DNA of 45,794 nucleotides, from contig JAFUAY010000008.1 in the NCBI GenBank assembly GCA_017460515.1, forward strand, positions 1-45,794. Direction: 5' to 3'. The notes beneath the pieces are model-generated. The model saw nothing but the letters and a program-made list of their open reading frames with translations, was not told the origin of the DNA and made no database searches. Positions 1 to 45,684 of the stretch are shown in pieces. Source of the stretch: Prevotella sp. Lineage in GTDB: Bacteria; Bacteroidota; Bacteroidia; Bacteroidales; Bacteroidaceae. The translations under genes were made by a program, and so were the position numbers. The stretch's first letter is position 1, and every line of letters begins with the position of its first letter.

Positions 1-1
1 A

Positions 2-4237: not shown

Positions 4238-4254
4238 TTCCCCACAAAAATTCG

Positions 4255-4903: not shown

Positions 4904-4961
4904 CAGAGAAATACTTTCTCTCTTGACGGATATTATTACGGATTCTGCTGTGAAGATATAA

Positions 4962-5000: not shown

Positions 5001-5012
5001 GTGATTTATTAA

Positions 5013-5438
5013 TCATACATCATTTCTGCAAAGCTGCCATCCGCGAAGCATCGAGAAGACGTCCAGTCCGTCCCATCCGCATTCCTGGATAGCCATTGCC
5101 ATGCCTACTGCCATCCAGCGGCTGGGTTTGTCTGATGGGATGCCTATCGGCTCGTCAGGGTCGATGCCGGTGAGACGAGAGACGTTCTCCACATACCGCT
5201 CCGTGTTATTCTCCGAGGGCGGTGCCCAACGCGAGATGATGCCTCGGATGGTGTAGAGACGGTACTTGTGGTAGTACGTGCGGGTGAGTAGATAGAAGGC
5301 TGCACGCCAGCCATACTCCATGGATTTGAACTGGCAGAATGCTCTATCGTTCTGAGCTTCTGCAAGACCTTTCCACTGGTCCTTACTCCGCCTGATGTTC
5401 AGTGGGTTATTATTACGAATTCCTCTTGGTATTGCCAT
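5013..5438 (-). CDS. P5-like structural/lysozyme-related protein
   Basis: A 141-aa protein beginning MAIPRGIRNNNPLNIRRS. The GIRNNNPLNIR motif is typical of proteins annotated as 'structural protein P5', found in phages and in Bacteroidetes mobile regions and related in name to the PRD1 P5 group. The rest is rich in Trp and Tyr (GWRAAFYLLTRTYY, RYVENVSRLTGI, AIQECGWDG) and resembles the peptidoglycan-hydrolase-like fold suggested for these proteins, but no catalytic residue can be assigned by eye. The start is set at 5438, at MAIPRG; 19 upstream codons in the open frame look non-coding. It is a mobile-element cargo gene of uncertain role. Confidence 0.75.
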   Translation of the reverse strand: MAIPRGIRNNNPLNIRRSKDQWKGLAEAQNDRAFCQFKSMEYGWRAAFYLLTRTYYHKYRLYTIRGIISRWAPPSENNTERYVENVSRLTGIDPDEPIGIPSDKPSRWMAVGMAMAIQECGWDGLDVFSMLRGWQLCRNDV

Positions 5439-5509
5439 AATTCTCAAATTCTTTAATTCTTGATTGTTTTTAACTGCAACACTGCAACGCTGCAACAGCG
5501 AGAGCAGAA

Positions 5510-5875
5510 CTATCTCTTTTTCTTATTCACATTCAGCGGTGTACTCTTCGGAAACGCGATGCTATAGGCAGCATCGAGAGCTTTCAGGTCAATCTTGTAA
5601 TAGCTGATGCCTAACTTTACGCTAACGATGGCCCTGAGCAGTTCGCGATGCTTGCGCGGGTAGAGCGACGGCAATGGAATCTCGTTCCAGCCTTCTTGAT
5701 CGCAGCGGTTGCACACCTCCCAGATGAAGTTGTCGTTGGCCTCAAAGCCGAACCATGTTTTCAGCACGCGACGGATGCAGAAGCGCTTGTACTGCCCCTG
5801 GAGGAGGCGCCTCGTGCGCTCCAGCCGAAGCCAGAGCTGCACAAAGCATTCTTGGGTATTCTGAATATCAATCAT
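5510..5875 (-). CDS. Hypothetical protein, island gene next to the VirE-like gene
   Basis: 121 aa if started at MIDIQNTQE; the frame is open to a GTG at 5902. No recognised domain. It is basic and aromatic-rich (FVQLWLRLERTRRLLQGQYKRFCIRRVLKTW) with one CNRC pair, so zinc binding is conceivable but unsupported. It lies downstream of the VirE-N/DUF3987 gene on the same strand, between it and the P5-like gene. Confidence 0.6.
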   Translation of the reverse strand: MIDIQNTQECFVQLWLRLERTRRLLQGQYKRFCIRRVLKTWFGFEANDNFIWEVCNRCDQEGWNEIPLPSLYPRKHRELLRAIVSVKLGISYYKIDLKALDAAYSIAFPKSTPLNVNKKKR

Positions 5876-5887
5876 AGCGGTAGCAAA

Positions 5888-5932
5888 TTTTTCACTTTTC
5901 ACTATTCACTTTTCACTTTCTTAATGACACTC
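5888..5932 (+). repeat. Short tandem TTTTCACT-type repeat with a TTAATGACACTC motif
   Basis: Between the VirE-like stop and the next gene there are about four imperfect copies of TTTTCACT, then CTTAATGACACTC (5920-5932). The latter 13-mer recurs at 15171-15183 and, inverted, at 15069-15081. Confidence 0.6.
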
Positions 5933-5946
5933 ATGACATCTTGACC

Positions 5947-13062: not shown

Positions 13063-13374
13063 TCAAGCTTCTTCTGCGAACAATCGTTCACTCTCGAAAG
13101 CCAGTTTGTCAAGATTTCCCCAAAACTCACGCCATATTGGCTCCTCTGCCATACTACCATGTCCCAAACCTACGATGTCTTTATCTTTCAATGTAGGGTC
13201 CAGACGGCCAAAGTTACCAATCTTCATTTTTAGTGCAGTAGGTGTCCTGCCTATCAACGGAGCATATTTCTGGATAAGGGGATGCTTCTCCTTCACATCC
13301 TTGAACGGTATCTTGAAATACACATTCAAGGCCATAATCATCTCCTCGTGAGTCCAAGCGTCAGCCCGTGTCAT
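13063..13374 (-). pseudogene. N-terminal fragment of an HNH-type restriction endonuclease
   Basis: 103 aa resembling the N-terminal domain of putative HNH restriction enzymes: WTHEEMIMALNVYFKIPF, HPLIQKYAPLIGRTPTALKMKIGNFGRLDP, then GLGHGSMAEEPIWREFWGNLDKLAFE. The HNH nuclease domain expected after this region is absent; the ORF ends at RLFAEEA and is followed by the methylase gene. Together with that broken methylase it looks like the remains of a type II restriction-modification pair. A stand-alone small protein is possible but less likely. Confidence 0.65.
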
Positions 13375-13378
13375 TATA

Positions 13379-14248
13379 TTATTCTTGTAATAACCTTTTC
13401 ACATCATCAATGCTCATGTTGGTACCTTGGGCTATTTGCTCAATAGTCAGTCCCATAGCCATAAGACGGTGAACAGTTTCTTCCTTCTCTTTTAAGACTC
13501 CCTTCACCTCGCCCTTGCGTTCTGCTGTTTCCAACGTACTCGTATAATCCCAATATTCCTTCTGGCTGGCTTCATACTGACGACGCTCGGCATCAGAATA
13601 CTTGGCTATTTCTGCCTGATCAAACAGCTTCTGGAAAACTCTGTCTTGTAAAGCCTTGGGGCGCTCCAACAGGCGGGAAAGGTTGCGAAGCACAAACATC
13701 CACTTCTCAAACATTGAGTTCAACTCATCCTCCGTCTTGTTGAATTTGGGCATTTCAAGATAAACGAAAGTCAGTTTGTCGTAGAATACATGGTGGTCAT
13801 CCACGTCTTCGAGCTTGATTTCATGGCGATAACGGTCAGCAGGATACTCGTTGTTGGGGAATTCAAAATTCAGGATACCAACAGTATATACTTCCTCCAG
13901 ATGATAATCCCACTTTCCTTTAGGAGCTTGTTGACGAATAGGTGTAGTGGCATAATAGACGCTACGATCCTTGAAATAAGTCTGTTCTGCCTTCTGCATC
14001 TCCACAATGAAACGGCTGCCATCCTTTGCCATACAATACACATCGAAGATGGAGCGGCGGTCACCGTAGCCATCGCCCAGGTTCTCACCATTGAGATACT
14101 GCACATCTTCAATTTCCTTTTTGCTCCCATTGAAAAGAGCATTGAGAAAACTGATGAGTAAATCCTTGTTCATCTCAGTACCGAACAACTTCTTGAAACC
14201 GAAGTCAGTATACGGATTGATAAATCTCTCTTTCGTATCGTCTGCCAT
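13379..14248 (-). CDS. Rpn family PD-(D/E)XK nuclease / putative transposase
   Basis: 289 aa. The start FINPYTDFGFKKLFGTEMNKDLLISFLN is the hallmark of the Rpn/PDDEXK_2 family (recombination-promoting nucleases, often annotated as transposase). The nuclease core is visible as FDVYCMAKDGSRFIVEMQ, with the metal-binding Asp and the E-x-Q that replaces E-x-K. The C-terminus carries a repeat-like helical tail (RLMAMGLTIEQIAQGTNMSIDDVKRLL) also typical of the family. It is probably intact. A -7 element (TAAATTTG) lies 21 nt before the ATG. It ends 4 nt before the restriction-enzyme-like fragment, so the two may be cotranscribed. Confidence 0.88.
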   Translation of the reverse strand: MADDTKERFINPYTDFGFKKLFGTEMNKDLLISFLNALFNGSKKEIEDVQYLNGENLGDGYGDRRSIFDVYCMAKDGSRFIVEMQKAEQTYFKDRSVYYATTPIRQQAPKGKWDYHLEEVYTVGILNFEFPNNEYPADRYRHEIKLEDVDDHHVFYDKLTFVYLEMPKFNKTEDELNSMFEKWMFVLRNLSRLLERPKALQDRVFQKLFDQAEIAKYSDAERRQYEASQKEYWDYTSTLETAERKGEVKGVLKEKEETVHRLMAMGLTIEQIAQGTNMSIDDVKRLLQE

Positions 14249-14268
14249 AATCGTCTTTTTTACTGTTG

Positions 14269-14276
14269 CAAATTTA
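14269..14276 (-). promoter_or_regulatory. Probable -7 element of the Rpn nuclease gene
   Basis: The minus strand reads TAAATTTG (TAnnTTTG), 20 nt before the ATG at 14248. No convincing -33 element was seen. Confidence 0.45.
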
Positions 14277-14325
14277 CGAAGAATATCTGAAAGTTAGCTC
14301 TTTATTTATTAAAAACTTGAAAAAA

Positions 14326-14820
14326 TTAACAGAAGTGTCCAAATGGCATATCGCCAAAGTTTGAGAAATATGTTTTCTGTGAATAGGCATTCCATTCAGA
14401 AGAGAACACACACTTTCCACCTGGGGCTTGCATTGCCAAACGGAACCCGCCCATACCAGCAAACAAATCGATAAAAGTAAACTTTGGATTCTGGGGTGCA
14501 GGGAAAGGTACATTGAAGAAGTCGGCAAACAAATCAGATTCCAATGGACTTTCTGCCGCCATTGTCACCACCTCGTCGCTGACATCCTCCCACATGGGAT
14601 TCTTCTTGTCCTGCTGGCGTTTGTACTCAACGAAGTCACGAATTACATCCATGATTTCATCTCGTTTTTCGCCAGATGCTATATCGTGTTTGCCCTTAAG
14701 AGTATGCAGATACTGACTCAGTATGGCAACCTGCGTCTCGTATGATGCAGAGCCATATATCTTGAGTCCATCTTCTGTCACCTCTTCAGGTATCTCTGAT
14801 AGTTTTATATCAATTGCCAT
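14326..14820 (-). pseudogene. Second DNA (cytosine-5) methyltransferase, N-terminal fragment
   Basis: 164 aa from MAIDIKLSEIPEEVTEDG. It contains an N-terminal helical extension and motif I (FTFIDLFAGMGGFRLAM), then SSEWNAYSQKTYFSNFGDMPFG. The sequence breaks off after this strand (HFC, stop) before the PCQ motif, so catalysis is impossible. It is not the missing half of the methylase at 12956, which has its own motif I. The open frame reaches 14895, but the added residues are membrane-like read-through of an AT-rich promoter region. A -7 element TACCTTTG is at 14844-14851. Confidence 0.82.
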
Positions 14821-30700: not shown

Positions 30701-30910
30701 AAGACGGGCGTTGTCTACGAACGGCGCCCTGACCGCGTGATGACTGACGGTAAGGAGATGATTGTCGTGGACTTCAAGTTCGGACGAAAGCGTGATGAAT
30801 ACAAAGACCAAGTCAGAGAGTACATGCAACTGCTCCTATCGATGGGCTATCCCAACGTGAGAGGATACTTGTGGTACGTTTATTCCAACATAATCGAAGA
30901 AGTAAAATGA
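27731..30910 (+). CDS. addA: AddA-like helicase-nuclease (UvrD/RecB family)
   Basis: 1059 aa, the AddA/RecB-type motor and nuclease of the double-strand-break repair complex. Walker A is KASAGSGKTFTLA. AVTFTNKATEEM (motif Ia) and the UvrD-type IDEFQDTSTVQW (motif II) follow, with GDVKQSIYRWRSGD (III), TNYRSS (IV), SIHKSKGLEFP (V) and LLYVAFTRASQGLYV (VI). The C-terminal RecB-type nuclease shows RPDRVM, then VVDFKFG (D-x-K), with Q-x3-Y in DQVREYMQLL. It starts inside the preceding gene (ATGGTAA, 7-nt overlap) and its TGA overlaps the ATG of the next gene (ATGA), as expected for an AddA-AddB pair made in fixed ratio. Confidence 0.93.
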   Translation: MVTTPLIIYKASAGSGKTFTLATEYIKLVVKNPQAYRKILAVTFTNKATEEMKMRILSQLYGIWKQLPSSKDYTEAVCKSLDASPEFVAKQAGLALSNLLHNYSYFRIDTIDSFFQTVLRNLAREVELTANLRVGLNDIQVEEMAVDELIDNLTSKDAMLQWILKYVLESISDDHSWNVIKQVKEFGRTIFKDYYKAESKKLYEALDEPKFFENYTEELRKKRANAKKRMTEIGDEFFRLTTEAGVGVDDFSYGKGGIFNFFQKLHDGTFDNGIIGPRIQSCAEDPENWVKKKGEKAETVRALANGPLGRLLDEALHEQPQQWKVYQSAELTLRHLNQLRLLKSIELKVRELNTDANRFLLSDTQKMLHDLIDNSDSPFIYEKIGTQLEHIMIDEFQDTSTVQWKNFKVLLQETMSHEDTENLIVGDVKQSIYRWRSGDWRLLGNITKEFDRPKEQLDIRTLDTNYRSSRRVIDFNNAFFIKATENTISAYDDVKQKVPAKRDNEGIVDITLLPSEDYQEMTLSHLVECVRQLTAQGVSSNQIAILVRTNKFIPLIADYFIAKMPEVTIVSDEAFRLDASSAVLVIIQALQLLTHPDDMIAQAFLAKAYAKKPLHAGNPEEMLPEAFSKHREELLRLPLYELTERLYSIFRLNEMEGQSAYLCAFYDQVTNYVNEQMADIHTFLKEWNETLCSKTIQSPDVNGIRLISIHKSKGLEFPYVLIPFCDWKLELGNILWCHPKEEPFNQLPIVPIDYSKSGMEGTVYEDDYNEENQQNLVDNMNLLYVAFTRASQGLYVWGKRGGSGHRSNIIETVLPSLKEDLKDMFIEGVENKKGPLHFEYGSVSVERQERTTETQGENDGNAPGKPVERNVFLQKATPLPLDIQVYDQKVSFKQSNKSREFAATDDEQQETNYIQLGSILHNVFSTILTKTDVDAALQQMEFEGIIYDKHLTRERIENLIRKRLNHPSVAEWYDEKWTLFNECTILNVDPKTGVVYERRPDRVMTDGKEMIVVDFKFGRKRDEYKDQVREYMQLLLSMGYPNVRGYLWYVYSNIIEEVK

Positions 30911-33900
30911 AAACGTTTCTACAATACGTAGCAGAGGACCTTATCAGGAAGTACGGCACCAATCTGTCACGGACTGCCGTCGTCTTCCCCAACAAGCGTG
31001 CTGCTCTCTTCCTGAACGAGCATCTGGCACGCCTGGCAGGACAACCCATCTGGAGTCCGGCTACCATCACCATCAGCGAAATGTTTCGTCATCACTGTGA
31101 CCTGCAAGTGGCCGACCCCATCAAGCAGGTGTGTGACTTGCATCACTGCTTCACCGAGGTGACGGGCTTCGACGAGACACTCGACCACTTCTATAGCTGG
31201 GGACAACTGCTGCTGGCCGACTTCGATGATATAGACAAGAATATGGCAGATGCCGATCAGGTGTTTGCCAACCTGCGCGACATCCACGAACTGGACGATG
31301 TGTCGTACCTCAGCGATGAACAGAAGAAGATCATCCAGCAGTTCTTCAGCAACTTCAGCGAGGATCATAACACCGAACTGAAAAAGCGCTTCCTGCAGCT
31401 CTGGACGCGAATGGGCGATATCTACCACACCTTCAACGACTACCTGGCTGAACAGGGACTCGCCTATGAAGGTGCGCTCTACAGGAAGGTGGCTGAACAA
31501 GAGGATATTGACTTCGAATACGATCGATATATCTTCGTAGGATTCAACCTCCTGCAACGCGTCGAACAGCGACTGTTCAAGATGCTGAAACAACAGCAAC
31601 GCGCCTTCTTCTACTGGGACTTCGATCATTACTACATGCCCTCGCAACAGAAGGGAAACAGCAATAACGAAGCTGGATACTATATCGCACAGTATCTCGC
31701 TGACTTCCCCAACGAACTGGACATCCACGATGACGACATCTATAATCAGTTCCAGCAGAAACGCGAGATCACCTATATCTCAGCCCCCACAGAGAACGCA
31801 CAGGCTCGGTATATCTCCACCTGGCTGAACGAGCGGGCTGAGCATTGCCAGAATCCGCGTACAGCCATCGTACTATGTAACGAAGGACTCCTTCAGACAG
31901 TCATCCACTGCCTGCCTGACGGAGTGGAGAAAGTGAATATCACCACAGGATTCCCACTCATCCAGTCGCCCATAGCATCACTCGTCAGCCAAATGCTGAT
32001 GCTACAGACTACGGGCTACTCCGCGTTGCGCGAACGCTTCCGACAGACTCAGGCAAATGCGGTGCTCTCACATCCGTATGTCAAATACCTGCCTGAAGGC
32101 GAAGAGCGCACGCTGCTGCTGAAACACTTCGATGACAACAAGTCGCTGCTCAGCTGGCTCTGTGAAGTGATGCAACTGATAGCTACAGGCATCGAACAGA
32201 CCTCCGCCTCCGACAGCGAACTGCCACTGATGCAGGAATCAGTATTCCGCATGTTTACGCTGCTGAACCGCTTATACGGTCTGGTGGAAAGCGGAAAACT
32301 GAGTGTCGATATCATCACCCTGCAACGACTCATCAACCAACTGGTGTCTTCAGCCAGCATTCCCTTCCACGGAGAACCTGTTGAAGGCATGCAGGTGATG
32401 GGCGTATTGGAGACGCGCAACCTGGACTTCGATCGTTTGCTGATTCTTTCCTGCAACGAAGGAAACATGCCCAAGGGAGTCAACGACACCTCGTTCATCC
32501 CCTACAGCATCCGTAAGGCATACGGACTCACCACCATCGACCATAAGGTAGCCATCTATTCCTATTATTTCCATCGGCTCCTGCAGCGCGCTGGCGATAT
32601 CACCATCGTATACAACAATGCCACTTCCGACGGACACACCTCTGAGAAGTCGCGATTCATGTTGCAGCTCATGGTTGAGAGCCAGCATGAATTCAGGTTC
32701 CAGACGCTCCAGGCAGGACAGCATTTCACGCCCTTCCAGCCTCAGCCCGTCAAAAAGACCAACGAGATTATGCAGCGTCTGCTGAACCGCTTCTCACTCT
32801 CACATCAGAAGAACCGGGACGCCAGCATCTATCCCTTGATGACACCTACTGCCATCAATCGCTACATGCGCTGTCCGCTGAGTTTCTATTACATCTATGC
32901 CTGCGGTATCCGTGAGGCAGATGAGACTGAAGACGATGTCATCGACGGACGTCTCTTTGGCAACATCTTCCACCAGGCGGCCCAAACGCTCTATGAGAAA
33001 ATGATGGAGAAGAGCAAGACCATTCAGAAGAGTGACATCGAGGCGCTGCTGAAATCGAAGGTTGCCATCGAACAGGCTGTCGATACCGCCCTGAAAGCAG
33101 AACTATTTCATGTTTCTGCCGATACGCCACTGGAGGGGAAATACGAACTCAACGGATTGCAAATCATCAATCGCCAAGTCATTATCCACTACCTGAGACG
33201 ACTGTTGGAACTCGACCATCGTACGGCTCCGTTCACCATGATTGGACTTGAACAGTCTGTCCTGGCACGCATCGATACGCCTTACCTCACTACAACGATT
33301 GGCGGACGCATCGATCGACTCGATCAGGTCTGTGATAAAGACCCGGAGACGCAAAAGCCTGTAGAACGCATTCGCATCGTTGACTATAAGACAGGCAGTT
33401 CCCGTCTGACGCCACTTAACGATGTGGAAGCAGTCTTCAAACAGGAGAACCTTTCCAAGCATAGCGATTATTACCTGCAGACGCTGCTCTACTCCTGCAT
33501 TGTCAGGACATCCAAGGAATACAATCCCCAGCAGTTGCCTGCCAGTCCTGCCCTGCTCTTCATCCAGCATGCAGGAGCATCCGACTATGATCCCACACTC
33601 TCCTTTGGCAAGAACAGGATCAATGATGTTGAGGACTATCGCGCACCCTTCGGACAACAGCTCACGGAGACTGTCAGCGACATGTTTAATCCCGACATTG
33701 ACTTCACCCCAACAGAAGACAGGCAGAGATGCAGCAGTTGTCCGTATCAGCTGCTGTGCAAACTCACGCTGACGCTACTCATCTGTCTCTCCACCATCTT
33801 CTCGTATGCCAAGCATACAGTACTTTCGCCCAATATCAAGTCACTTCAGGTGGTTGCCAATACCAAATGGACCTCGATGCCCATCATGACACTTGGAGCG

Positions 33901-35001
33901 GATGATGTGCTCCACATTGCCTTCGACGAGCTGTCGCACGACTATCACCGCTACGTGGCTCATCTGGAACATTGCGAGGCAGACTGGACGCCCTCAACCG
34001 ATATCTTCGATACCGACTGGCTCGAAGGCTTCAACGATATCCCCATCGACGACTACGAGAAATCCATCAATACCACCGTTCTCTTCACCCATTATCAATA
34101 CACCATCCCCAACAGCCAGTGCCGACTCAGGATGAGCGGCAATTACCGCCTGCACATTCTGGATGAGGACAATGGAAACGAAGAGGTGCTGGTGGCTGAG
34201 TTCAGGGTGGTTGAACCCATTGTCGACGTCGGACTTGGTGTCACCACAAATACCGACTGGGGACTGAACGGGCGCTTCCAGCAAGTATCTATGACAGTCA
34301 ACTACAAAGGTCTTCGTGTCACCCGTCCTGATGAGGAGTTCCATATCGTGCTCATGCAGAACGCACGTGAAGACAATATGAAGGAAAACGTCAAGCCCAA
34401 CTACCTCACTCCGCAGGGAATGAAATGGGAGCATAACAGGAGCCTCATCTACGAAGCCGGCAACGAGTATCACAAGTTTGAAGTACTCGATCCCTCACAT
34501 ATCACGATGGGACTCGAACGCGTATGGTGGGACGAGTCGGAACGCTATTACCACGCAGTTCCGTTCCTCTGCGAGCCCCAGCGCAACTATCTCTATACTG
34601 AGGATGCCAACGGCGCCTTCTATATCCGAAACAGCAATAACATTGAGAACGACCTGGCCAGCGATTATGTCTATGTGCACTATAAACTGATGCCTGCAGA
34701 CGAATATGCTGACGCACAAGTCTTCATTGACGGAAAGTGGACAACGGGAAATCCACAAGACTACCTGATGTACTATGACAGTAGCGACCGCTCCTACAAC
34801 GCCACGATCCTACAGAAAATGGGCTACTACAACTATCAGCTGATGATGATGGATGCCGACGGAAACACGCATCTGCTACCAGAGGAAGGCTCTTTCTATC
34901 AAACGGAAAACACCTATCAGGCATTGGTATACTATAAAGCCACCAGTGACCGCAGCTGGCGACTGGTGGGCTATCGCGAAATAACTTTCAATGCTGACTG
35001 A
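30907..35001 (+). CDS. AddB-like nuclease fused in frame to a type IX secretion plug (DUF5103) domain
   Basis: A 1364-aa ORF from MKTFLQYVAEDLIRKYG. Residues 1-951 are an AddB-type protein: degenerate helicase-like N-terminus (VVFPNKRAALFLNEHLA), then a PD-(D/E)XK nuclease with GGRIDRLD and RIVDYKTGSS. Four cysteines fit the AddB iron-sulfur site: one in RYMRCPLSFYY and three in RCSSCPYQLLC. Directly after the last cysteine (codon 951, 33757-33759) comes KLTLTLLICLSTIFSYAKHTVLS, which looks like a signal peptide, and then about 400 residues of DUF5103, the type IX secretion plug family, ending SWRLVGYREITFN. In relatives I would expect two separate genes. No ATG, GTG or TTG is available near the junction, so either the fusion is real, a CTG is used, or a base is wrong. 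Confidence 0.88.
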   Translation: MKTFLQYVAEDLIRKYGTNLSRTAVVFPNKRAALFLNEHLARLAGQPIWSPATITISEMFRHHCDLQVADPIKQVCDLHHCFTEVTGFDETLDHFYSWGQLLLADFDDIDKNMADADQVFANLRDIHELDDVSYLSDEQKKIIQQFFSNFSEDHNTELKKRFLQLWTRMGDIYHTFNDYLAEQGLAYEGALYRKVAEQEDIDFEYDRYIFVGFNLLQRVEQRLFKMLKQQQRAFFYWDFDHYYMPSQQKGNSNNEAGYYIAQYLADFPNELDIHDDDIYNQFQQKREITYISAPTENAQARYISTWLNERAEHCQNPRTAIVLCNEGLLQTVIHCLPDGVEKVNITTGFPLIQSPIASLVSQMLMLQTTGYSALRERFRQTQANAVLSHPYVKYLPEGEERTLLLKHFDDNKSLLSWLCEVMQLIATGIEQTSASDSELPLMQESVFRMFTLLNRLYGLVESGKLSVDIITLQRLINQLVSSASIPFHGEPVEGMQVMGVLETRNLDFDRLLILSCNEGNMPKGVNDTSFIPYSIRKAYGLTTIDHKVAIYSYYFHRLLQRAGDITIVYNNATSDGHTSEKSRFMLQLMVESQHEFRFQTLQAGQHFTPFQPQPVKKTNEIMQRLLNRFSLSHQKNRDASIYPLMTPTAINRYMRCPLSFYYIYACGIREADETEDDVIDGRLFGNIFHQAAQTLYEKMMEKSKTIQKSDIEALLKSKVAIEQAVDTALKAELFHVSADTPLEGKYELNGLQIINRQVIIHYLRRLLELDHRTAPFTMIGLEQSVLARIDTPYLTTTIGGRIDRLDQVCDKDPETQKPVERIRIVDYKTGSSRLTPLNDVEAVFKQENLSKHSDYYLQTLLYSCIVRTSKEYNPQQLPASPALLFIQHAGASDYDPTLSFGKNRINDVEDYRAPFGQQLTETVSDMFNPDIDFTPTEDRQRCSSCPYQLLCKLTLTLLICLSTIFSYAKHTVLSPNIKSLQVVANTKWTSMPIMTLGADDVLHIAFDELSHDYHRYVAHLEHCEADWTPSTDIFDTDWLEGFNDIPIDDYEKSINTTVLFTHYQYTIPNSQCRLRMSGNYRLHILDEDNGNEEVLVAEFRVVEPIVDVGLGVTTNTDWGLNGRFQQVSMTVNYKGLRVTRPDEEFHIVLMQNAREDNMKENVKPNYLTPQGMKWEHNRSLIYEAGNEYHKFEVLDPSHITMGLERVWWDESERYYHAVPFLCEPQRNYLYTEDANGAFYIRNSNNIENDLASDYVYVHYKLMPADEYADAQVFIDGKWTTGNPQDYLMYYDSSDRSYNATILQKMGYYNYQLMMMDADGNTHLLPEEGSFYQTENTYQALVYYKATSDRSWRLVGYREITFNAD

Positions 35002-37599: not shown

Positions 37600-37657
37600 C
37601 CACTCCTCTATCTTTAGGCCTAGATGGTAGTGGATCAAAGAACCGTCCCTGTAATCC
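37600..37657 (+). repeat. Direct repeat, copy A
   Basis: 41 bp starting CCACTCCTCTATC and 12 bp ending TGTAATCC are identical to the copy at 39125-39177 and in the same orientation; copy A has 5 extra bases (AACCG, 37641-37645). The 41-bp part contains an imperfect palindrome around AGGCCT. In copy B the sequence is the 3' end of the ART-like gene. Copy A, with its frameshifting insertion, looks like the tail of a related gene: the minus strand preceding it also reads RITGT in frame. Confidence 0.85.
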
Positions 37658-37715: not shown

Positions 37716-38123
37716 TTATGCCGCAGCCAATTCTTCTCCTAATTTATGAATGTGGTCAAGTATTTCCTGCTCACGCTCTTTCGAAGGTTTTTTGAACCCA
37801 TTAATATAATTCCGAAGCAACGTGGGATTCATACCCATCCGACGGGCGAACTCTGCCACATTGATTTCCTTATGGGTGAGGAAGAAGCGTTGCAAACCAC
37901 TTGGCTCGGCATCCTCATATCCAAAGCTCTCAAAACTGATGTCCTCATCCAATTCACGCCAATGAATACCATCGAAGCCAAATGTATATTTGCTTCGTTC
38001 TTCATCATTAGCCTGCCGCAGCCCAGGATACCACAGCAACGACTGCCTATACTCCTTTCCTTCTTCGTCTCTGCCGTAAATATAATCGGCATCAAACCAA
38101 ATCTTCTTAATCTTCATACGCAT
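37716..38123 (-). CDS. DUF2442 plus HTH protein, likely antitoxin/regulator
   Basis: 135 aa. The N-terminal part (MKIKKIWFDADYIYGRDEEGKEYRQSLLWYPGL, residues 3-35) and YTFGFDGIHWRELDEDISFESF fit the DUF2442 fold. A C-terminal XRE-like helix-turn-helix follows (VAEFARRMGMNPTLLRNYINGFKKPSKERE). It is encoded 6 nt downstream of a DUF4160 gene, the usual partner. Such DUF4160/DUF2442 pairs resemble toxin-antitoxin modules, although activity is unproven for most. Two starts, MRMK and MK, are possible. Confidence 0.82.
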   Translation of the reverse strand: MRMKIKKIWFDADYIYGRDEEGKEYRQSLLWYPGLRQANDEERSKYTFGFDGIHWRELDEDISFESFGYEDAEPSGLQRFFLTHKEINVAEFARRMGMNPTLLRNYINGFKKPSKEREQEILDHIHKLGEELAAA

Positions 38124-38129
38124 TCCTCC

Positions 38130-38369
38130 TTATTTCTCAAAATATTCTTTCCAACGCTTGACGATAATGTCGGCATTCTCGTCAATCATCTTCTTAATCT
38201 TCTTATAGTCATTCGCTTTGATTCCTTGTTTCTCAAACAGTTCGAACTCAGCACCATTCCAGATAAATTTGGCCATTCCACCATTACCTTCAACATGTAC
38301 GTGAAGCGGCTCATGTTCTTTACTGTAAAAGAAGAACGAGAATCCATAGAATCTGAATACTTCTGGCAT
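38130..38369 (-). CDS. DUF4160 protein, possible toxin of a two-gene module
   Basis: 79 aa. MPEVFRFYGFSFFFYSKEHEPLHVHVEGNGG is the DUF4160 signature (first 31 residues), followed by MAKFIWNGAEFELFEKQGI and a helical C-terminus. DUF4160 proteins are usually paired with DUF2442 proteins, as here (6-nt gap). They are suspected toxin-antitoxin partners; this one could equally be a regulatory pair. It has its own full promoter, so the module is independent of the neighbouring genes. Confidence 0.88.
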   Translation of the reverse strand: MPEVFRFYGFSFFFYSKEHEPLHVHVEGNGGMAKFIWNGAEFELFEKQGIKANDYKKIKKMIDENADIIVKRWKEYFEK

Positions 38370-38446: not shown

Positions 38447-39120
38447 TTATTCTTTCCCTTCAACGATTTTGATTTCTTCATCCGTCAAATCATAGAGCTG
38501 ATAGACGAGACGGTCGATTTCGGATTCTAATGCAGAAGTATCTGTAAGAGGATTTGTTTGTTTTTCTATTAATATTTCATCTACTAATTCAACTATGTAT
38601 TGCTGTTGTTCTACGGATGGCAATGGTATCGGCAGGTTTCGAATATGATCAGGAGATTAGGAGAGCTAACATATGGAGGATTTCCTATTACTATATCAAA
38701 ACCTCCTTGTGAGAATACATCATAGAACCAAGTGTGCCAAAGCATGAATTGGTTGTTGCCAGAGAGGTCGAGGTCTCCAAAGTTGACGTTTATACCTTGT
38801 TCCTTTAGTTGTTGCTTTACGTTCTCGATAATCTTTGTTCGAAGACTTTGCTTTTTATGATGGTCTGTACAATCATAATACTCTTCAAGCATTTGGCGCA
38901 AATCAAGACGTAAAACATCTATCATGTCATCAAACATAGTTGTTTGGTATGTTCCATGCTTTTCCGTCTTTAATTCCGTTATCGTTGAGAGGTCAACACC
39001 CTTGTATTGCTCTAATAATGAATTGCCCTGCATAATCTTGAAGTCGAGATTTGGCAGAGCCTGTGGGGTTTCCTCATCAACTATCAGCGAAAGCCAGAAA
39101 CGGAGACGAGCTATATCAAC
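38447..39120 (-). pseudogene. Eco57I/type IIG-like DNA methylase, internally deleted and frameshifted
   Basis: Two pieces of one gene family lie end to end. The first (39120 to about 38655) starts at VDIARLRFWLSLIVDEE and reaches the catalytic motif IVIGNPPYV; its N-terminus is absent. The second (about 38665 to 38447), in another frame, begins DHIRNLPIPLPSVEQQQ and ends ALESEIDRLVYQLYDLTDEEI...EGKE, the classical C-terminus of these enzymes. The region after NPPY and the target-recognition domain are missing. The first piece begins exactly at the end of the ART-like gene, sharing its stop-codon bases. The gene is dead and marks an old rearrangement. Confidence 0.85.
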
Positions 39121-39865
39121 GGCACCACTCCTCTATCTTTAGGCCTAGATGGTAGTGGATCAAAGTCCCTGTAATCCCAATTTCTTTTTTCAAATCCTTA
39201 TCCACCACATCATACTCATACTGGCTTAAATCCACCGGCTTGTTGTATCGGAATTCCGTTTCGTTCAGCCAGCCGTTTCTGATATATTTTTCAATCCGCT
39301 CATTACATTCCGTCCTCAGATACTCTGGGTCAACATCTGTCAACTTATAGATAACTGGATGCGGTTCTGCTTCCGCTAGGCCAATGAGAGAGTCTGCGAT
39401 CTTTTCAAGGTTCGGCAGTTTCTCATTCAGATACCAATCCTGCAAACCTGCCACCTTCGCAGCCTTCACTAAAGCGTATGCAGAGAAAGCGAATTCACCT
39501 CCTGCAAATGCTTTTTGTGCATACATCACAGCGCTGAATCTATGCGAGGTGATATAGAAGTCACCATATTCATACTCTTCTGTTAGGCGACTACTGCTTA
39601 TGTCCAACAATGCCTCCAAAAGATTTTTAAGTATCTTGGGGTCATCCTCTGCAGGTCTTCCCAACAATGCTTTAATCCGGGTGTCGTCCTCTTCGCCAAT
39701 GGGATGGTATTCGTAAAATCTGGGATACAATGTTTCCCTAAAATACTTGCAATATTCCAGATATAGCTTCCTGAAATCTTCCGGCATAGATGAAAAAGCA
39801 AGGTCGGTGCCGTGATAGAAAACCTCTGGGTAGTTCGTTATTTGCTCCCTTAATCCTTGTTCCAT
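39116..39865 (-). CDS. Putative ADP-ribosyltransferase-like protein in a restriction operon
   Basis: 249 aa; I do not recognise a named family with certainty. Three spaced motifs resemble the H-Y-E core of ADP-ribosyltransferase-like folds (DUF3990/KptA-like pattern): YHGTD at residues 17-21 (His18), DFYITSHRFSAVMYA at 102-116 (Tyr104), and an E-x-E in LNETEF at 200-205 (Glu204). The start abuts the stop of the Res gene (TAA then ATG), so it is the fourth gene of the operon. The last 17 codons are encoded by a direct repeat that recurs at 37600-37657. An effector or accessory role in defence is inference from context. Alternative: an unrelated helical protein with chance motifs. Confidence 0.6.
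   Translation of the reverse strand: MEQGLREQITNYPEVFYHGTDLAFSSMPEDFRKLYLEYCKYFRETLYPRFYEYHPIGEEDDTRIKALLGRPAEDDPKILKNLLEALLDISSSRLTEEYEYGDFYITSHRFSAVMYAQKAFAGGEFAFSAYALVKAAKVAGLQDWYLNEKLPNLEKIADSLIGLAEAEPHPVIYKLTDVDPEYLRTECNERIEKYIRNGWLNETEFRYNKPVDLSQYEYDVVDKDLKKEIGITGTLIHYHLGLKIEEWCR
39125..39177 (+). repeat. Direct repeat, copy B (3' end of the ART-like gene)
   Basis: Identical to copy A (37600-37657) except for the 5-bp insertion in A. On the minus strand it encodes GITGTLIHYHLGLKIEEW, the C-terminus of the ART-like protein. Confidence 0.85.
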
Positions 39866-42202
39866 TTAAACGTCAGCACAATCTTTTATATCATCAAACG
39901 TTTGGCAGTCCTCAGCATCTGAATCCAGCAATAGCCAATACTCCCAAGGCTTCCCTGAAGCAATGGTCTGGGCCTTACACCACTCACGGGCTGCATTAGC
40001 CTTGATGGTAGCATCTTGATCCTCATTGCCAAAGCGGTCATCGTCCTTCAGTTCCAATAATACGTTCTTGTCTTCAAGATTTAGGAAAACAGCAAAGTCA
40101 GGCGAATAATTACCTGCCGGTGTAAGCAGGGTGATAATGCCGGGTAAATTGCGGAACCACGACTTCACTTCTTCAGCGGTGTCAATGATACAAGCAATAC
40201 GATACTCATTAGGCGTATCGAATGGCACGGCTTCATAACTACAGCGCACCCAGCCCGTAAAAGGTATCCCCTTGTGTTCTTTACTAACCCACTCAGCTAC
40301 ATTCATGTTGCGACTAAATGGGGACTCATAGGTTTCTGGAACACTAATTTGAATTGCAGAAAGGTCTATCACCTTATCTTCTGGAAGTCTCTCATAACTT
40401 ACCTTCTGTTGCTTGCTCAAATCATCAAGACACTTCTTGATATGTCCTATCACACGGGCAGAGTCAAGCTTAATCGTTTCCTCTGTAAAACGACTTGCCG
40501 TCAGGAAACGTTCTACCAGACTCCTTACCTTCTGATAGTGAGACCTAAATTTAAGATATGTGCAATGATTGATAACTTCTGAGGTAACAAAGCGGATAAA
40601 CTCGTCCCTCTCAAACTCTATGCTATTTCCAAGTCTTCTAATGGTTGTTGGGTCGTTTATGAGGAAGAAGTGAACATCCTGGGCTTTCAGCGCAGGAATG
40701 GTAATGGCATCCAAAGGCAAAGCCTCTTTGTTCATCTTGTATTGAGGAATTCTCAATACCTTTTCGCCTCGCACCACATTCAGAGAGATTTTCTTTTTGG
40801 GTACAAAGTCTGTATCTGGTTTCTCTGGGTCGACATTCTTGACCACAGTGATACCTTGTTTGTTGTTGGCACCAAAGCCTTGCTGAGTGAGTTTTGTTAC
40901 AATGTCCTGCATCGTTTCGTGGCCGAAGCAAAGTACGTCAAGTGTATCAACCTCTTCGTCACCAACCTGTTTGCCAAAAGGAAGGCGAAGACCACGACCC
41001 ATAATCTGAGTAACGTATGTGACGGAAGCAGCAGAACGCAGGGGTGCTATAACATAAATATTCGAGACATCCCATCCTTCTGTCAGCATCATCACATTTA
41101 CCACTACTTTGACAGGAGAATAAGGGTCTTCCAGCTTTTTCAATCTGGGTACATATTCATTCTCGTTCAATCCAGAGTGTACAAGTAGCACAGCATCTTT
41201 GTTTTCAAGATAGTTCTGAAGCCATTTAGTTGTTTCTTCTGCATGTGTTTTGTTTTCGCATGCAACAAGCATAGTGGCTTTTACCTTTTTGTTTACTTCA
41301 TTAACCTTGCAATAGTCATCAATATACTTTTGTTTCGTTTCTAACCGTTGCAGGGCAAAGCGCAATGTAACATGGTCGTATTCCTCGTCAGAAATCAAGT
41401 CTGATTTCTTGTCAGGCAACATCCTTACAAACTTGGTGTAAAGATGCTCATTAAGACAACGCTTCAAATCATAACTATACATGATGTTGTTCTGATTCTC
41501 AGTAACAGAAGCTGTTGTGCCGATAATCATCTTGGGATTGAGGGCATTCAATTCCTTACGCCAAACTGAATCATCTTCCTTTTCTTTGTCCAGTCCCAAG
41601 TGATGTGACTCGTCAAAGAATATTACCAAATCATCCAGAGCCTGCAAATATTCTACAGGACTGCAGCTGTCAAACTGACCCTTAAACTTCATTCTGGCAT
41701 TGTTTGCCGTGAGAGACTGGGGAGAAATAACCCAGATACGAGGTCCCTTATCAAATATCCCCGTTTGGTTAAAATCTCTGACATTTGATTCTGAGTTGAA
41801 TACCGTTGGGTAGTCCACTAGCGACGGGTCCACAAAAAGATAGTCTCTTGCACCACTGCACACATCATAGAACTTACGGATTATCTCTGTTCGTGTCGAT
41901 ACAATCATGAAGTCACGAGACTCTTTTGACAGAAATAGATAGGCAATAATTGCTCCTATCAATCGAGTCTTACCCACACCTGTTGCCATGTGGATGGTAA
42001 ACTCAGTGGAGCTATGCTCAAAAGCCCACGTAGGATTAGCCTCCTTGAAAAGCGAAGCGACCTCCTCTGCTGTCATATCTTTCAATGACAGTTCTGCCTT
42101 ATCCATTACTTGATGGAATTTCTCTAAAGCCTCCAATTGAGGAGTACGAAGACTCATAGCTCCTTTTACTCGCTCAAATGCTATATTCTTTTCGTTGTTC
42201 AT
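39866..42202 (-). CDS. Type III-like restriction subunit Res (DEAD-like helicase with C-terminal nuclease)
   Basis: 778 aa. The SF2 helicase core shows Walker A MATGVGKTRLIGAI, motif II FFDESHH, motif III-like IIGTTASV, TEGWDVSN, and motif VI QIMGRGLRLPFG. Near the C-terminus, NYSPDFAVFL (residues about 707-716) then NVLLELKDDD give the PD...(D/E)-x-K nuclease core typical of Res subunits. It is shorter than classic Res (about 900-1000 aa). The ATG shares one base with the stop of the Mod-like gene (TAATG), so the two are translationally coupled. As in type III enzymes, it should need a Mod partner to find sites. Confidence 0.9.
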   Translation of the reverse strand: MNNEKNIAFERVKGAMSLRTPQLEALEKFHQVMDKAELSLKDMTAEEVASLFKEANPTWAFEHSSTEFTIHMATGVGKTRLIGAIIAYLFLSKESRDFMIVSTRTEIIRKFYDVCSGARDYLFVDPSLVDYPTVFNSESNVRDFNQTGIFDKGPRIWVISPQSLTANNARMKFKGQFDSCSPVEYLQALDDLVIFFDESHHLGLDKEKEDDSVWRKELNALNPKMIIGTTASVTENQNNIMYSYDLKRCLNEHLYTKFVRMLPDKKSDLISDEEYDHVTLRFALQRLETKQKYIDDYCKVNEVNKKVKATMLVACENKTHAEETTKWLQNYLENKDAVLLVHSGLNENEYVPRLKKLEDPYSPVKVVVNVMMLTEGWDVSNIYVIAPLRSAASVTYVTQIMGRGLRLPFGKQVGDEEVDTLDVLCFGHETMQDIVTKLTQQGFGANNKQGITVVKNVDPEKPDTDFVPKKKISLNVVRGEKVLRIPQYKMNKEALPLDAITIPALKAQDVHFFLINDPTTIRRLGNSIEFERDEFIRFVTSEVINHCTYLKFRSHYQKVRSLVERFLTASRFTEETIKLDSARVIGHIKKCLDDLSKQQKVSYERLPEDKVIDLSAIQISVPETYESPFSRNMNVAEWVSKEHKGIPFTGWVRCSYEAVPFDTPNEYRIACIIDTAEEVKSWFRNLPGIITLLTPAGNYSPDFAVFLNLEDKNVLLELKDDDRFGNEDQDATIKANAAREWCKAQTIASGKPWEYWLLLDSDAEDCQTFDDIKDCADV

Positions 42203-44142
42203 TATATCATCAAATCAAATGGTGCTCTTTTGAGAGTAACGTTCTTCATCGACGTAAAACTCTCATCGTTCGATTCGTAAACGACTATCAATTTACCTGT
42301 TTTATATTTACTCTTGTAGCTGTCAAGAAGCACGTTGTCTAATGACTCTTCTTCTGGAACAACCACTACAATACGATTGTCGATGCCTGTATATGCATTT
42401 TGCTCTGGCAGTTGCCGATAGGCACCAGCCAATCCTGCATAGAAAGCTTCTGCATCTTCGCTATCATCAAAGAAAGGTTCAATATCTCCATTCTTTTGGT
42501 TATGCACCAAATAGGAATCAGAGAGCCGAAGGACATCAATCCTTCCAATCTTGTTCTTGGTTTCAGGTAAAGCATCATTACCTTCTATATCCTCTGTGTC
42601 AAGTCCATCGATAACACCTTTCAAACGCTTTGAACCTGTTTCCTCCCAAGTGGAAAGGTTGTCTTCAGATGCTCCTGTAATATGGATAAATGGCTTCTGT
42701 AATTTGATGGCTACTCCTGAGAAAACACAGTTGCTATCGCCCAATGCCAATACTATGTCTTTCTTAGATGGCGCAAGCAGGGAGAAAATATGTGCCAACA
42801 GTTTCTGTGGCTTAGCTGTCATGTTGATCTCCCCCTCTGTAATATGGGCATTTTTCAGAGCTTTGCAATGCTGAGTGGCATCTTGGGTATGGCCAAAATC
42901 ATACCACGGCAGGAAGTTCATTACTGCCTGAATCTTCTTTGCATCCTCTCTGCTAAAATATTTCTTGATAGACGGTAGCGCAACGCCTGTTCCTCCAAAG
43001 GAAGCTTTTGCCCTTGCTATTCCTTCTATCAAAGTTCGCAGTCCAAACTCCCAGTAACGCCCTGCTCCAGGAGAATCGCTTCGCATTGTTATAGGCTCAC
43101 CTCCCTCTGCTTTCAATACTAGCGAAAACTCTTGACCCTTTATTCCTGTCAATTGTTCTGAAGGCAAGTCCGATACCTGAAGTTGACCACCCTTTACAAT
43201 GTCATTGTCATTCTTCATAAGCCACCAGATCCTCTGGGGTAACTGATAGACATCATCAATAGAGGTTCTTTCACGCACGCTGAAGTTTATAACCTTTTCC
43301 GCAGTATTTCCATTCTTGTCTGTGGCTTTCACTTTCACAAAAAAGTCTCCTATACTATCAACAGATTCAAACCAAAGCGAGCCTAATATCCTGTCGAAAT
43401 AGTAGCGACCATCTGGCAAATTAGAATCGATGATTTCCCAATGGTAGGGCGATGTATTGATTTTAAACTTGGTTGCCTCACTACCTGAACGTGCTCCTTT
43501 ATGCCCATCAATATAGCAGCCTCTGAAATCGCCATCATCTTTCAAGTCCTTTGGAGTGACGAGAAGGCCGATTCTTGGAAGCTCCTCAACGGGGGATTTA
43601 CTGAAAACAGTTATGTAGTCCAAAACGTCTGTTGGGACGGCGTTGTCGTTTTGAGGTGCATACTGTTTCTGCCAGGCAAACGTGCCGACATAGTTGTTTT
43701 TCCCAAAGATCTCTTCCAAAACGATTCTAGCATAGTGGGCCATTTCTTCGTCAGTATGCAAAGCAAAGAAGCCCATCCTTGACATGCAGGGAATGGCTTT
43801 CATCGCAGACTGCTGTATTAGCGAAAGCCATGTAGAAGTTGAATAACCTGACTCTGAAACACTCTGGAATACAGACAGACGTGGCGCGTCAAGATACACA
43901 AGTTGTACAGAAGAAGGCACAAAAGAGTGGAGCGAATCTAGTGCAGAGATAATATCCCCCTTTATGCTATAACCCAACACGTCATTGCCTTCTCCAATCT
44001 GAGAATCAAAAATCAGAGCACGTTTTACTACCTTCTTGTTATATGGTGTCAATTGCCATTTCCCATTATTGAAATGCAACTCACAATGTTTCCCTGGCCA
44101 GTTGAACTCTATAGTTCCAGCAAAAGGATTTGTCTCATTCAT
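42202..44142 (-). CDS. Mod-like protein with destroyed catalytic motif (dead type III methylase homologue)
   Basis: 646 aa. The N-terminal third aligns by eye with type III Mod: GDIISALDSLHS (GDNLxAL in Mod), VQLVYLDAPR at 79-88 where Mod has IDPPYNT, TSTWLSLIQQ, then EEIFGKNNYVGTFAWQKQYAPQND and DYITVFSKS. Later blocks also match (PSIKKYF, FGHTQDATQHCKAL). The catalytic DPPY is DAPR, and the expected SAM-binding FAGSGTT block reads LALGDSNCVFSG, so methylation is very unlikely. A segment at about 225-290 (YHWEIIDSNLPDGRYYF, VKVKATDKNGNTAEKVINF) looks like an inserted beta-sandwich. It is one base into the Res gene and 3 nt after the cytosine methylase. Probable role: DNA recognition subunit for Res. 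Confidence 0.8.
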   Translation of the reverse strand: MNETNPFAGTIEFNWPGKHCELHFNNGKWQLTPYNKKVVKRALIFDSQIGEGNDVLGYSIKGDIISALDSLHSFVPSSVQLVYLDAPRLSVFQSVSESGYSTSTWLSLIQQSAMKAIPCMSRMGFFALHTDEEMAHYARIVLEEIFGKNNYVGTFAWQKQYAPQNDNAVPTDVLDYITVFSKSPVEELPRIGLLVTPKDLKDDGDFRGCYIDGHKGARSGSEATKFKINTSPYHWEIIDSNLPDGRYYFDRILGSLWFESVDSIGDFFVKVKATDKNGNTAEKVINFSVRERTSIDDVYQLPQRIWWLMKNDNDIVKGGQLQVSDLPSEQLTGIKGQEFSLVLKAEGGEPITMRSDSPGAGRYWEFGLRTLIEGIARAKASFGGTGVALPSIKKYFSREDAKKIQAVMNFLPWYDFGHTQDATQHCKALKNAHITEGEINMTAKPQKLLAHIFSLLAPSKKDIVLALGDSNCVFSGVAIKLQKPFIHITGASEDNLSTWEETGSKRLKGVIDGLDTEDIEGNDALPETKNKIGRIDVLRLSDSYLVHNQKNGDIEPFFDDSEDAEAFYAGLAGAYRQLPEQNAYTGIDNRIVVVVPEEESLDNVLLDSYKSKYKTGKLIVVYESNDESFTSMKNVTLKRAPFDLMI

Positions 44143-44145
44143 AGT

Positions 44146-45192
44146 TTATAAATTTTCTTCTTCTGATGCTATTTCTATTTCCAGTCGCTTCAGCGTTTCT
44201 TCTGTAGCGTTCCATTGCTTCCAAGGCTCCGTTTCAGGAATTCCTTTGAAAGCCTCTCTTAACGTTACCCAAGGCAGTTTTCCAATAGCAGGTTTCATGG
44301 GATTATGATGAGTCGCCACCTCTCCAATTTTTCTCAAAAGCCTATTGGCAAATGTATTTGACTTACCCTTTATTCCCAGCATCAGCACACGCTTTCTTGT
44401 TTGAGGTACACCATAGTCAGCAGCATTAACCACTACAACAGCAAAACCGTATTTCAAGCCCTCTTTAGGATGAGACATTCTATCAAACAAATCTGCCACA
44501 TAAGCCTGATGTTCCTTAGACATCAAAAGACCTGGAACATTTTCAAATAAGAACACCTCTGGTTCACAGGCGGCAATTGCCGTAGGTGTGAATCCCATCA
44601 CATCGCGTGGGTCGGCAGCACCTTTCTTTCTACCGCTCATAGACCAAGGCTGGCAAGGAGGGCCACCGCATAGCAGACCTACCTTACCACAATACTGCTC
44701 ATAGTCGAACTGTTGTGCATAGCCTTCTACTACGCAATCAGCAGGCCAAGGTTTGTTGGTGCGAAGTATTTTTGCCGCTACGTCCCAAAGCTCTATTTTG
44801 GCAATAGGAGTCAAATAATCAAAACCAGAGCTGAGACCGCCAATACCTGCACATATCTCTATTAGCGTCTTATTCTGGAAGTCAATGTTTTCTTTCAACA
44901 GGTCTGCCAAAACGTGTGACAAAGGGGGAGGCACAGCATTTCCTAAAACAGCTATGCGCTCACTCTCAGTAATGCCGTCAACATTCACCCATTCAGCAGG
45001 AAACCCTTGTATGGCGGCAATCTCAGCAACACTCATGCGACGGATTTTCTTACCATCCACCACATGCGCCTCCTGAGGACGACGACACCACTCCTTGCGT
45101 ACCGTCGTTGATGGCCAGTCCATCACCTGCGGCCTATGTTTGGGGTCGTTAGATACAGCGTCCGACCAAGTACTTCTCAATAATTCTGCCAT
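44146..45192 (-). CDS. Circularly permuted DNA (cytosine-5) methyltransferase
   Basis: 348 aa with every catalytic motif of m5C methylases but in rotated order. Motif IX (RRMSVAEIAAIQGFP, residues 51-65) and motif X (VLGNAVPPP, 82-90) come first. Then motif I (LIEICAGIGGL, 110-120), motif IV with the catalytic Cys180 (GGPPCQPWS), motif VI (FENVPG), and motif VIII (QTRKRVLMLG, 264-273). The segment PWVTLREAF that normally precedes the recognition domain is near the C-terminus. Only about 50 residues at the N-terminus and 75 at the C-terminus are left for target recognition. The order resembles the permuted M.BssHII. It is the first gene of the operon, with a promoter 27 nt upstream. Confidence 0.9.
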   Translation of the reverse strand: MAELLRSTWSDAVSNDPKHRPQVMDWPSTTVRKEWCRRPQEAHVVDGKKIRRMSVAEIAAIQGFPAEWVNVDGITESERIAVLGNAVPPPLSHVLADLLKENIDFQNKTLIEICAGIGGLSSGFDYLTPIAKIELWDVAAKILRTNKPWPADCVVEGYAQQFDYEQYCGKVGLLCGGPPCQPWSMSGRKKGAADPRDVMGFTPTAIAACEPEVFLFENVPGLLMSKEHQAYVADLFDRMSHPKEGLKYGFAVVVVNAADYGVPQTRKRVLMLGIKGKSNTFANRLLRKIGEVATHHNPMKPAIGKLPWVTLREAFKGIPETEPWKQWNATEETLKRLEIEIASEEENL

Positions 45193-45218
45193 TTCTTCAA
45201 TGTCATTTCTCTAGCCTG

Positions 45219-45226
45219 CAAAAATA
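45219..45226 (-). promoter_or_regulatory. -7 element of the restriction-like operon
   Basis: The minus strand reads TATTTTTG (TAnnTTTG), 26 nt before the ATG at 45192. No standard -33 TTTG was seen; a palindrome occupies the spacer instead. Confidence 0.5.
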
Positions 45227-45227
45227 C

Positions 45228-45248
45228 GAATAATCCTTGAGATTATTC
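45228..45248. promoter_or_regulatory. Palindrome next to the -7 element, candidate operator
   Basis: GAATAATC, 5-nt CTTGA, GATTATTC: a perfect 8+8 bp inverted repeat that starts 1 nt upstream of the -7 element and fills the space where the -33/-7 spacer would be. A bound protein would block the promoter. No separate controller (C) protein gene is adjacent; the methylase or the Mod-like protein could be the regulator. Confidence 0.5.
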
Positions 45249-45264
45249 ACATCCAAGCATATTT

Positions 45265-45684
45265 TTACACATTATTTAATAAAAGCACATCGTTGCGGTA
45301 CTCATACCACCATCTGGCGGCGGCGTGGAGGGCATAGACTCTCTCGCTGATAAAGTCGGGGTACTTGGGGGTGAGTTCGGCAGCATTGAAGCCGGCAATG
45401 ACGCAGATGAAAGTGGTGTTGCCCTCGATGTAGTCGCACCAATGATTCTCGCCCAGGCAGAAGCCGAGGATGTTGTCAAACTCTGCTTCGGTGCGGGGCA
45501 GTTGGACGTGGGCCACCACATGGGGCTTTGCTTGTTGGTGCAGGAGCCAGTAGTCACCGTGACCCTCTACGTGTCTAAACTCTGCCTTGAAGGCCTCGCG
45601 TTCTACATGTTCTGGTTTCAGCCCGCAATGCTGGAGCCGTGGGAACGTGACATAATTGCAATTCTCAATCTTTTTGATTTCCAT
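45265..45684 (-). CDS. Hypothetical protein upstream of the restriction-like operon
   Basis: 139 aa, MEIKKIENCNYVTFPRLQHCG start. No recognised family. Rich in Trp, His and Tyr (GHGDYWLLHQQAKPHVVAHVQLPRTEAEF, residues about 41-69; ENHWCDYIEG; AAARWWYEYRN). The alternating beta pattern suggests a small alpha/beta domain. It is on the same strand as the operon, but 72 nt and a promoter lie between, so it is probably a separate unit. Upstream (45685-45794) I saw nothing beyond possible leader sequence. Confidence 0.65.
   Translation of the reverse strand: MEIKKIENCNYVTFPRLQHCGLKPEHVEREAFKAEFRHVEGHGDYWLLHQQAKPHVVAHVQLPRTEAEFDNILGFCLGENHWCDYIEGNTTFICVIAGFNAAELTPKYPDFISERVYALHAAARWWYEYRNDVLLLNNV

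Follow-up and report, generated by a model that had tools for sequence, protein, structure and literature searches.

Organization of the locus

The window analyzed here, the whole 45,794-nucleotide stretch of Prevotella DNA, is a single contig of a 2.27-Mb genome that is 65% complete. Between positions 39116 and 45192, all four ORFs of the original prediction lie uninterrupted on the minus strand at the coordinates given there. The first encodes a C5-cytosine DNA methyltransferase (44146..45192; PF00145, 2.3e-45) that is circularly permuted and appears to be without a recognisable target-recognition domain. It is followed by a Mod-like protein (42202..44142) with an apparently dead beta-class amino-methyltransferase fold, in which DPPY is replaced by DAPR; the recognition region of this protein contains an Ig-like segment. 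Next comes a Res protein (39866..42202), an SF2 helicase/ATPase joined to a PD-(D/E)XK nuclease. The last gene encodes an ART-like protein (39116..39865), the fold of which is unproven and which probably lies next to the unit without belonging to its core.

The tight packing claimed for these genes, abutting, overlapping by 1 nt, or lying 3 nt apart, is borne out by the coordinates and by a reading of the junctions. The TAA stop of the methylase gene is followed by ACT and then by the ATG of the Mod-like gene (a 3-nt gap), the Mod-like and res genes share the sequence TAATG (a 1-nt overlap), and the TAA of res directly abuts the ATG of the fourth gene (0 nt). The G+C content of the first three genes is 0.43 to 0.46, versus 0.49 across the window. 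At 45226-45219 lies TATTTTTG, which, judged by eye, we take to resemble a Bacteroidota -7 element. Other than res, we found no nuclease gene in 39116-45684, and the endonuclease beside the C5 methylase is Res itself. Elsewhere in the window, a single 1376-aa frame (30871-35001) has halves that look like unrelated proteins.

Relatives and distribution of the unit

Ten loci were compared, namely, the window, L033, and L036 to L043. The complete three-gene content occurs at six of them: the window, plasmid pMaqPC3 of Methylobacterium aquaticum (L033), a Beijerinckiaceae metagenome-assembled genome (MAG) (L038), Microvirga sesbaniae (L040), Sphingomonas sp. H160509 (L041), and an Armatimonadetes MAG (L042). 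Co-conservation of all four genes had been predicted; it holds for the C5, Mod, and Res genes, which occur together at these six loci, and fails for the ART-like gene. Two further loci (L036 and L039) run out inside the unit, and the last two, from an uncultured bacterium (L037) and a member of the Bacteroidaceae (L043), have altered or shortened C5 genes only, without Mod or Res. These C5 remnants, either a form without ENV or a 138-aa remnant, lie ahead of other restriction genes (L037, 9977-10924; L043, 1167-1583). The window and L038 have whole frames, as does L040, where the nuclease domain is its own ORF; frames are broken at three of the six complete loci, in Mod in L033, in Mod and Res in L041, and in Res and the end of Mod, at Ns, in L042. 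The profile scan gave one TAA inside the Sphingomonas Mod.

A tblastn search of 72,556 plasmid records returned a single record covering at least 80% of Mod, pMaqPC3, in which the locus consists of vsr, dcm, a Mod-like gene in two ORFs (annotated "Ig domain-containing protein"), a helicase gene, and a separate nuclease-domain ORF. Three plasmid records reached at least 80% query coverage in the m5C search, from Methylobacterium (the only one studied), Peribacillus (27%), and Escherichia coli (24%), and the Methylobacterium record was likewise the only plasmid match to Res that was examined. With the N-terminal portion of the C5 methylase as the query, we recovered L036 in viral contigs and, out of 153 candidate stretches, 7 in genome contigs, the latter in a scan that required DPKHRPQ or a second short pattern and that members with neither would escape. 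There was no other near-full-length Mod in 399 same-family genomes, and an m5C search of 395 same-phylum genomes at 1e-30 returned the genome's own copy only. When the Mod profile was run against 397 genomes of the order of Microvirga, 246 of the order of Sphingomonas, and 250 of the phylum of the Armatimonadetes MAG, the known carrier alone was near full length in each case. The three-gene unit is rare in the sampled genomes.

The viral contigs held no relative of the window Mod, and a fixed-gap DNA pattern for the permuted methylase, which does match the window, had 0 matches there. The m5C profile gave 9 of 60 in these contigs, namely, L036 and eight weaker C5 enzymes, of which the sole one read (L065) has the ordinary motif order; a phage collection gave one N-terminal Mod match only. 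Two of 20 candidates from the Mod profile in viral contigs (L060 and L061) were set aside as ordinary DPPY Mods, as was a Jeotgalibaca plasmid match (H13), an ordinary type III locus with DPPY.

Several features of the surroundings were recorded along the way. In L036, the unit immediately follows tailed-phage genes for baseplate and tail fibre (1-6111); in L042, a phage-type replication-nicking protein (5652-6470; phrog_91, 1.4e-87) comes after Res; and in L038, a second C5 methylase, of canonical order (13283-14431), ends convergently with Res.

The C5 methylase

Reading the C5 methylase gave the motif order IX, X, I, IV, VI, VIII, which confirms the predicted permutation. The catalytic motifs PCQ, ENV, QxRxR, and GxAVPP are intact in all seven homologues, and the same seven proteins keep the sequence DPKHRPQ, which is N-terminal of motif IX and 46 to 48 residues ahead of QGF. 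The top PADLOC models for the protein, DruM (1.6e-50) and DrmMII (4e-30), reflect generic C5 homology, and no further Druantia or DISARM model matched among the six window proteins scanned with PADLOC. Over the first 212 codons, the C5 genes of the window and L037 are 80% identical in nucleotide sequence and differ at 106 codons synonymously and at 10 nonsynonymously, a ratio that speaks for past selection on the C5 protein; beyond those 212 codons, L037 is altered.

The chain begins close to motif IX. Ahead of DPKHRPQ are 15 residues in the window protein and 20 in L038, motif VIII is followed by 79 residues in the window and by 72 to 83 across the members, and the catalytic-domain fold match to M.HhaI covers residues 1 to 192 only. 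In L089, a naturally permuted Esp3I-type enzyme, 165 residues separate the adenine-methylase match from the QGF of motif IX. The C5 flanks outside the conserved motifs (about 45 N-terminal residues plus those after motif VIII) nevertheless sum to about the VIII-IX distance of M.HaeIII (98), so the argument for a missing recognition domain is one of position and conservation, not of length. Judged by position, with L089 and L090 as comparators for the N-terminal part, the C5 methylase appears to be without a target-recognition domain of its own.

Five of the seven C5 proteins also carry an N-terminal HTH-like stretch, which matches Pfam MerR at 1.1e-12 in L040 and HTH_17 under the cut-off in L042, the other HTH members being assigned by alignment. 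These five proteins have about 96 to 114 residues ahead of DPKHRPQ, which could do more than form an HTH and a linker. An HTH that could bind DNA and a leftover length comparable to the VIII-IX stretch of M.HaeIII would both suit an alternative in which the C5 methylase is self-sufficient, with short recognition elements at its two ends, and is merely accompanied by Mod-Res, an independent nuclease either blind to methylation or sensing it. The stretch ahead of motif IX, however, is nearly invariant across phyla, unlike a specificity domain, and further evidence on this alternative comes from the arrangement of the genes, which we take up below.

The Mod-like protein

The Mod-like protein matches PF01555 at 1.1e-5 with 26.0 bits, just below the curated cut-off of 26.7, and both its sequence profile and its fold match three solved type III Mods of the beta class. 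Its recognition region sits between the motif VIII and motif X regions, as in type III Mods, and its C-terminal region is common to ordinary Mods. DAPR does stand in place of DPPY in the window, as originally reported, and motif I (FxGxG) is lost too. Motif IV reads DLPR in L033, L040, and L041, DIPR in L042, and ETHR in L038, such that Arg occupies the place of the Tyr of DPPY in all six proteins. The original prediction had been staked on homologues in the same context not regularly keeping DPPY, and none of the six keeps it. Among ordinary type III Mods, DPP[YF] is kept in 58 of the 58 checked, these controls being loci from the Mod scans of the same-family genomes, of the orders of Microvirga and Sphingomonas, and of the phylum of the Armatimonadetes MAG; the frames of L019 and L058 are short, and L008 has an extra DLPR elsewhere in addition to its own DPPY. 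The comparison supports loss of catalysis as a conserved trait of the Mod-like protein.

An extra Ig-like segment is found in most members of the family, with an Ig match above the cut-off in three of the six only. In the window, it lies at approximately 43390..43630 on the minus strand (PYHWEI...LPDG...GSLW...INFSV), a placement based on aligned homologues with a match to He_PIG (PF05345); the window copy gives no Pfam match of its own. The Ig pattern applied to the ordinary Mods matched 0 of 58, and it differed from the pattern applied to the Mod-like members, five of which, the window being the exception, it would fit by reading.

A type III locus that has decayed and now has no function, next to a cytosine methylase unrelated to it, would account for the frames broken at three of the six loci and for the remnants in L037 and L043. 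We give almost no credence to this explanation, given that the frames of the window, L038, and L040 are uninterrupted, that synonymous differences exceed nonsynonymous ones (106 versus 10) between the C5 genes of the window and L037, and that all six Mods have the identical Arg substitution.

The Res protein

Res carries both the helicase and the nuclease motifs ascribed to it (ATGVGKT, FFDESHH, and PDF...LELK). The window protein matches PF04851 (3.5e-16), PF19778 (2.8e-8), and also PF00271, and the Res family profile matches the Res subunit of EcoP15I (4zcf_C) at 9.8e-11. PD...E-x-K is present in six of six Res proteins, and ATGVGKT is present in all five in which that part is visible. In L033, L040, and L041, all of them alphaproteobacterial copies with vsr, a short ORF of its own encodes the nuclease domain.

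The ART-like gene and its surroundings

Neither Pfam nor PADLOC nor NCBIfam gave a notable match for the fourth protein, and its ART-like label derives only from the motifs YHGT, DFYxTS, and GGE, which it has in common with one homologue. Its single-sequence model is unusable (pLDDT, 37.5), and a profile of the window protein and its relatives in genome G222, one row of which is a neighbouring 222-aa protein, matched no solved structure. The gene was not found in L036 to L043, in the seven carrier genomes, or in the 72,556 plasmid records. Its sole relative among 301 same-family genomes, in G222 (39% over residues 15-229), sits in a defence island (L072, 794-10225) with an HKD-Snf2 helicase (PADLOC, 3.3e-43), a type IIG enzyme (1.7e-85), and membrane-like and unknown proteins.

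Downstream of the ART-like gene, the minus strand of the window carries a broken fragment (38450-39120) of a type IIG (Eco57I-like) gene, containing IGNPPY and 75% identical to the type IIG gene of L072 over 487 aligned bases; the last codons of the ART-like gene, moreover, are similar to those that close a 222-aa gene of that island (HYHLGLKIEE). Because this broken piece of the island's type IIG gene lies downstream of it, the ART-like gene looks like the leftover of an L072-type island, and it is probably a remnant that came to lie against res by chance. The original prediction had offered the ART-like protein as a fourth component and possible effector. Its gene abuts res, which suggests cotranscription, and a true four-gene system with an abortive effector might be read from this; but with the gene not found beside any other copy of the unit, with its only relative in a different island, and with the leftover look of its surroundings, we regard such a system as highly improbable.

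Some 53 to 58 bases of the 3' end of the ART-like gene (39125-39177) are repeated (91%) 1.5 kb downstream, at 37600-37657. Both copies resemble the end of the L072 222-aa gene, and the stretch between them may mark a recombination. A small gene pair, DUF4160 and then DUF2442-HTH, lies at 37716-38369 on the minus strand.

A dead Mod as a proposed shared DNA reader

C5 and Mod are joined in one frame at three of the seven loci with a visible junction (L038, L042, and L036, in which only the start of Mod is seen) and are separate at the other four. The fused Mod comes after motif VIII, which is where the circular order would place the recognition domain. Pairwise identities of m5C, Mod, and Res correlate with one another (r of 0.91, 0.93, and 0.91 over 15 pairs from six loci), in a comparison that used pieces for broken genes and had no unrelated-gene control. 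A predicted C5-Mod model has a pTM of 0.40, too low to place C5 relative to Mod. Separate genes at four of seven loci would be in keeping with the self-sufficient C5 methylase described above, but the fusions at the remaining three and the co-variation of all three genes, added to the near invariance of the stretch ahead of motif IX, make that explanation unlikely.

The reading that we prefer, to which we assign a probability of roughly 60%, is that the unit is a restriction-modification system of type III architecture in which the dead Mod would be a shared DNA reader for the C5 methylase and Res. Recognition and methylation would be permanently split between two proteins: the Mod-like protein would read the target for its two partners, the permuted C5 methylase would mark a cytosine in self DNA, and Res would move on and cut unmarked DNA. 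In EcoP15I, two identical Mods share the work: ModA recognises DNA and touches Res, and ModB methylates (PMC4490356). In these terms, the Mod-like protein would be a permanent ModA, responsible for recognition and contact with Res, and the C5 enzyme would replace ModB in base flipping and methylation. We infer the formation of a complex, the hand-over of recognition, the role of m5C as the protective mark, and restriction itself.

A hybrid of type III and type II logic had been foreseen for this locus. What stands of it is the catalytic division, with C5 motifs present in seven of seven proteins and Mod apparently dead in six of six; recognition by Mod is a step that we infer, and the ART part falls away. 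The apparent absence of a C5 recognition domain, the C5-Mod fusion, and the Ig-like insertion together make the hand-over of recognition a more specific proposal than hybrid logic. A bolder version of the shared-reader reading is possible, though doubtful: the dead Mod pocket, with its Arg for Tyr, might sense whether the C5 site is marked and so decide between methylation and the release of Res, the Ig-like insert might be a module for reading bases or docking subunits that is new to restriction enzymes, and the place of the C5 recognition domain might have been taken by an entire foreign methyltransferase.

A vsr gene lies next to three of the six complete loci, and, from the role of Vsr, the gene is expected where a genome carries m5C. 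This fit with genomic m5C, the strict gene order, and the fusion with an active-looking C5 enzyme all weigh against a type IV-like or inverse logic, in which Mod-Res would attack DNA carrying or lacking the mark of others and the C5 enzyme and Vsr would serve elsewhere, for example, in gene control via the HTH. We consider that logic very unlikely, even though a dead methyltransferase could read modified sites and DndH has an inactive methyltransferase beside a nuclease (PMC10853773).

Comparison with known systems

The unit is like type III restriction-modification systems (EcoP15I, the Helicobacter pylori Mod 6k0w, and Mbo45V) in its Mod-like fold, its VIII-X recognition region, its helicase-nuclease Res, and its mod-res order. 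It differs from them in that Mod appears dead, with DPPY and motif I gone, and in that an added C5 enzyme is proposed to methylate; in the portion of PMC8259958 at hand, type III systems are described with m6A and m4C only and with DPPY and motif I kept. Set against type II C5 restriction-modification systems, the unit has the catalytic motifs in seven of seven proteins, whereas a recognition domain of the methylase's own and a separate type II endonuclease appear to be absent.

Naturally permuted C5 methylases (type H; M.BssHII and the Alw26I/Eco31I/Esp3I group) share the permutation in the variable region, with motifs IX and X before I to VIII, and PMC5944983 puts the number of natural permuted C5 enzymes in REBASE at 27, each with its break in the variable region. 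The Esp3I-type comparators L089 and L090 likewise have a permuted C5 enzyme joined to an amino-methyltransferase. Enzymes of this type, however, retain recognition residues ahead of motif IX, and the partner to which they are joined is an active-type gamma adenine methylase; here, the partner is a type III Mod, apparently dead, that lies on the opposite side and is followed by Res.

Seen in this company, the family looks like a natural separation of function, in which the reader lost catalysis and the writer was swapped for an enzyme of another class that lacks a reader. If the shared-reader interpretation is true, recognition, methylation, and cutting in type III systems would be separable modules, m5C would be added to m6A and m4C as a type III mark, and the exchange of one protein might change the specificity of writer and cutter together.

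DndH resembles the unit in having an inactive methyltransferase domain, its motif eroded, with a recognition domain beside a nuclease; its inactive domain, however, is of the gamma type and lies inside a HerA/FtsK protein, and no C5 partner is described in the portion of PMC10853773 at hand. A system made up of a permuted C5 methylase, a dead Mod, and Res was not found in the open-licence PMC literature, which is not proof of its absence in print. In the eukaryotic METTL3-METTL14 complex, which acts on RNA, a pseudo-methyltransferase gives recognition to an active partner, both subunits being of the same class. The partners here, unlike those of METTL3-METTL14, differ in chemistry and class. 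A parallel between METTL3-METTL14 and EcoP15I is drawn in PMC4490356, and the unit described here would, if our reading is true, add a testable case of a pseudo-methyltransferase serving as a recognition subunit.
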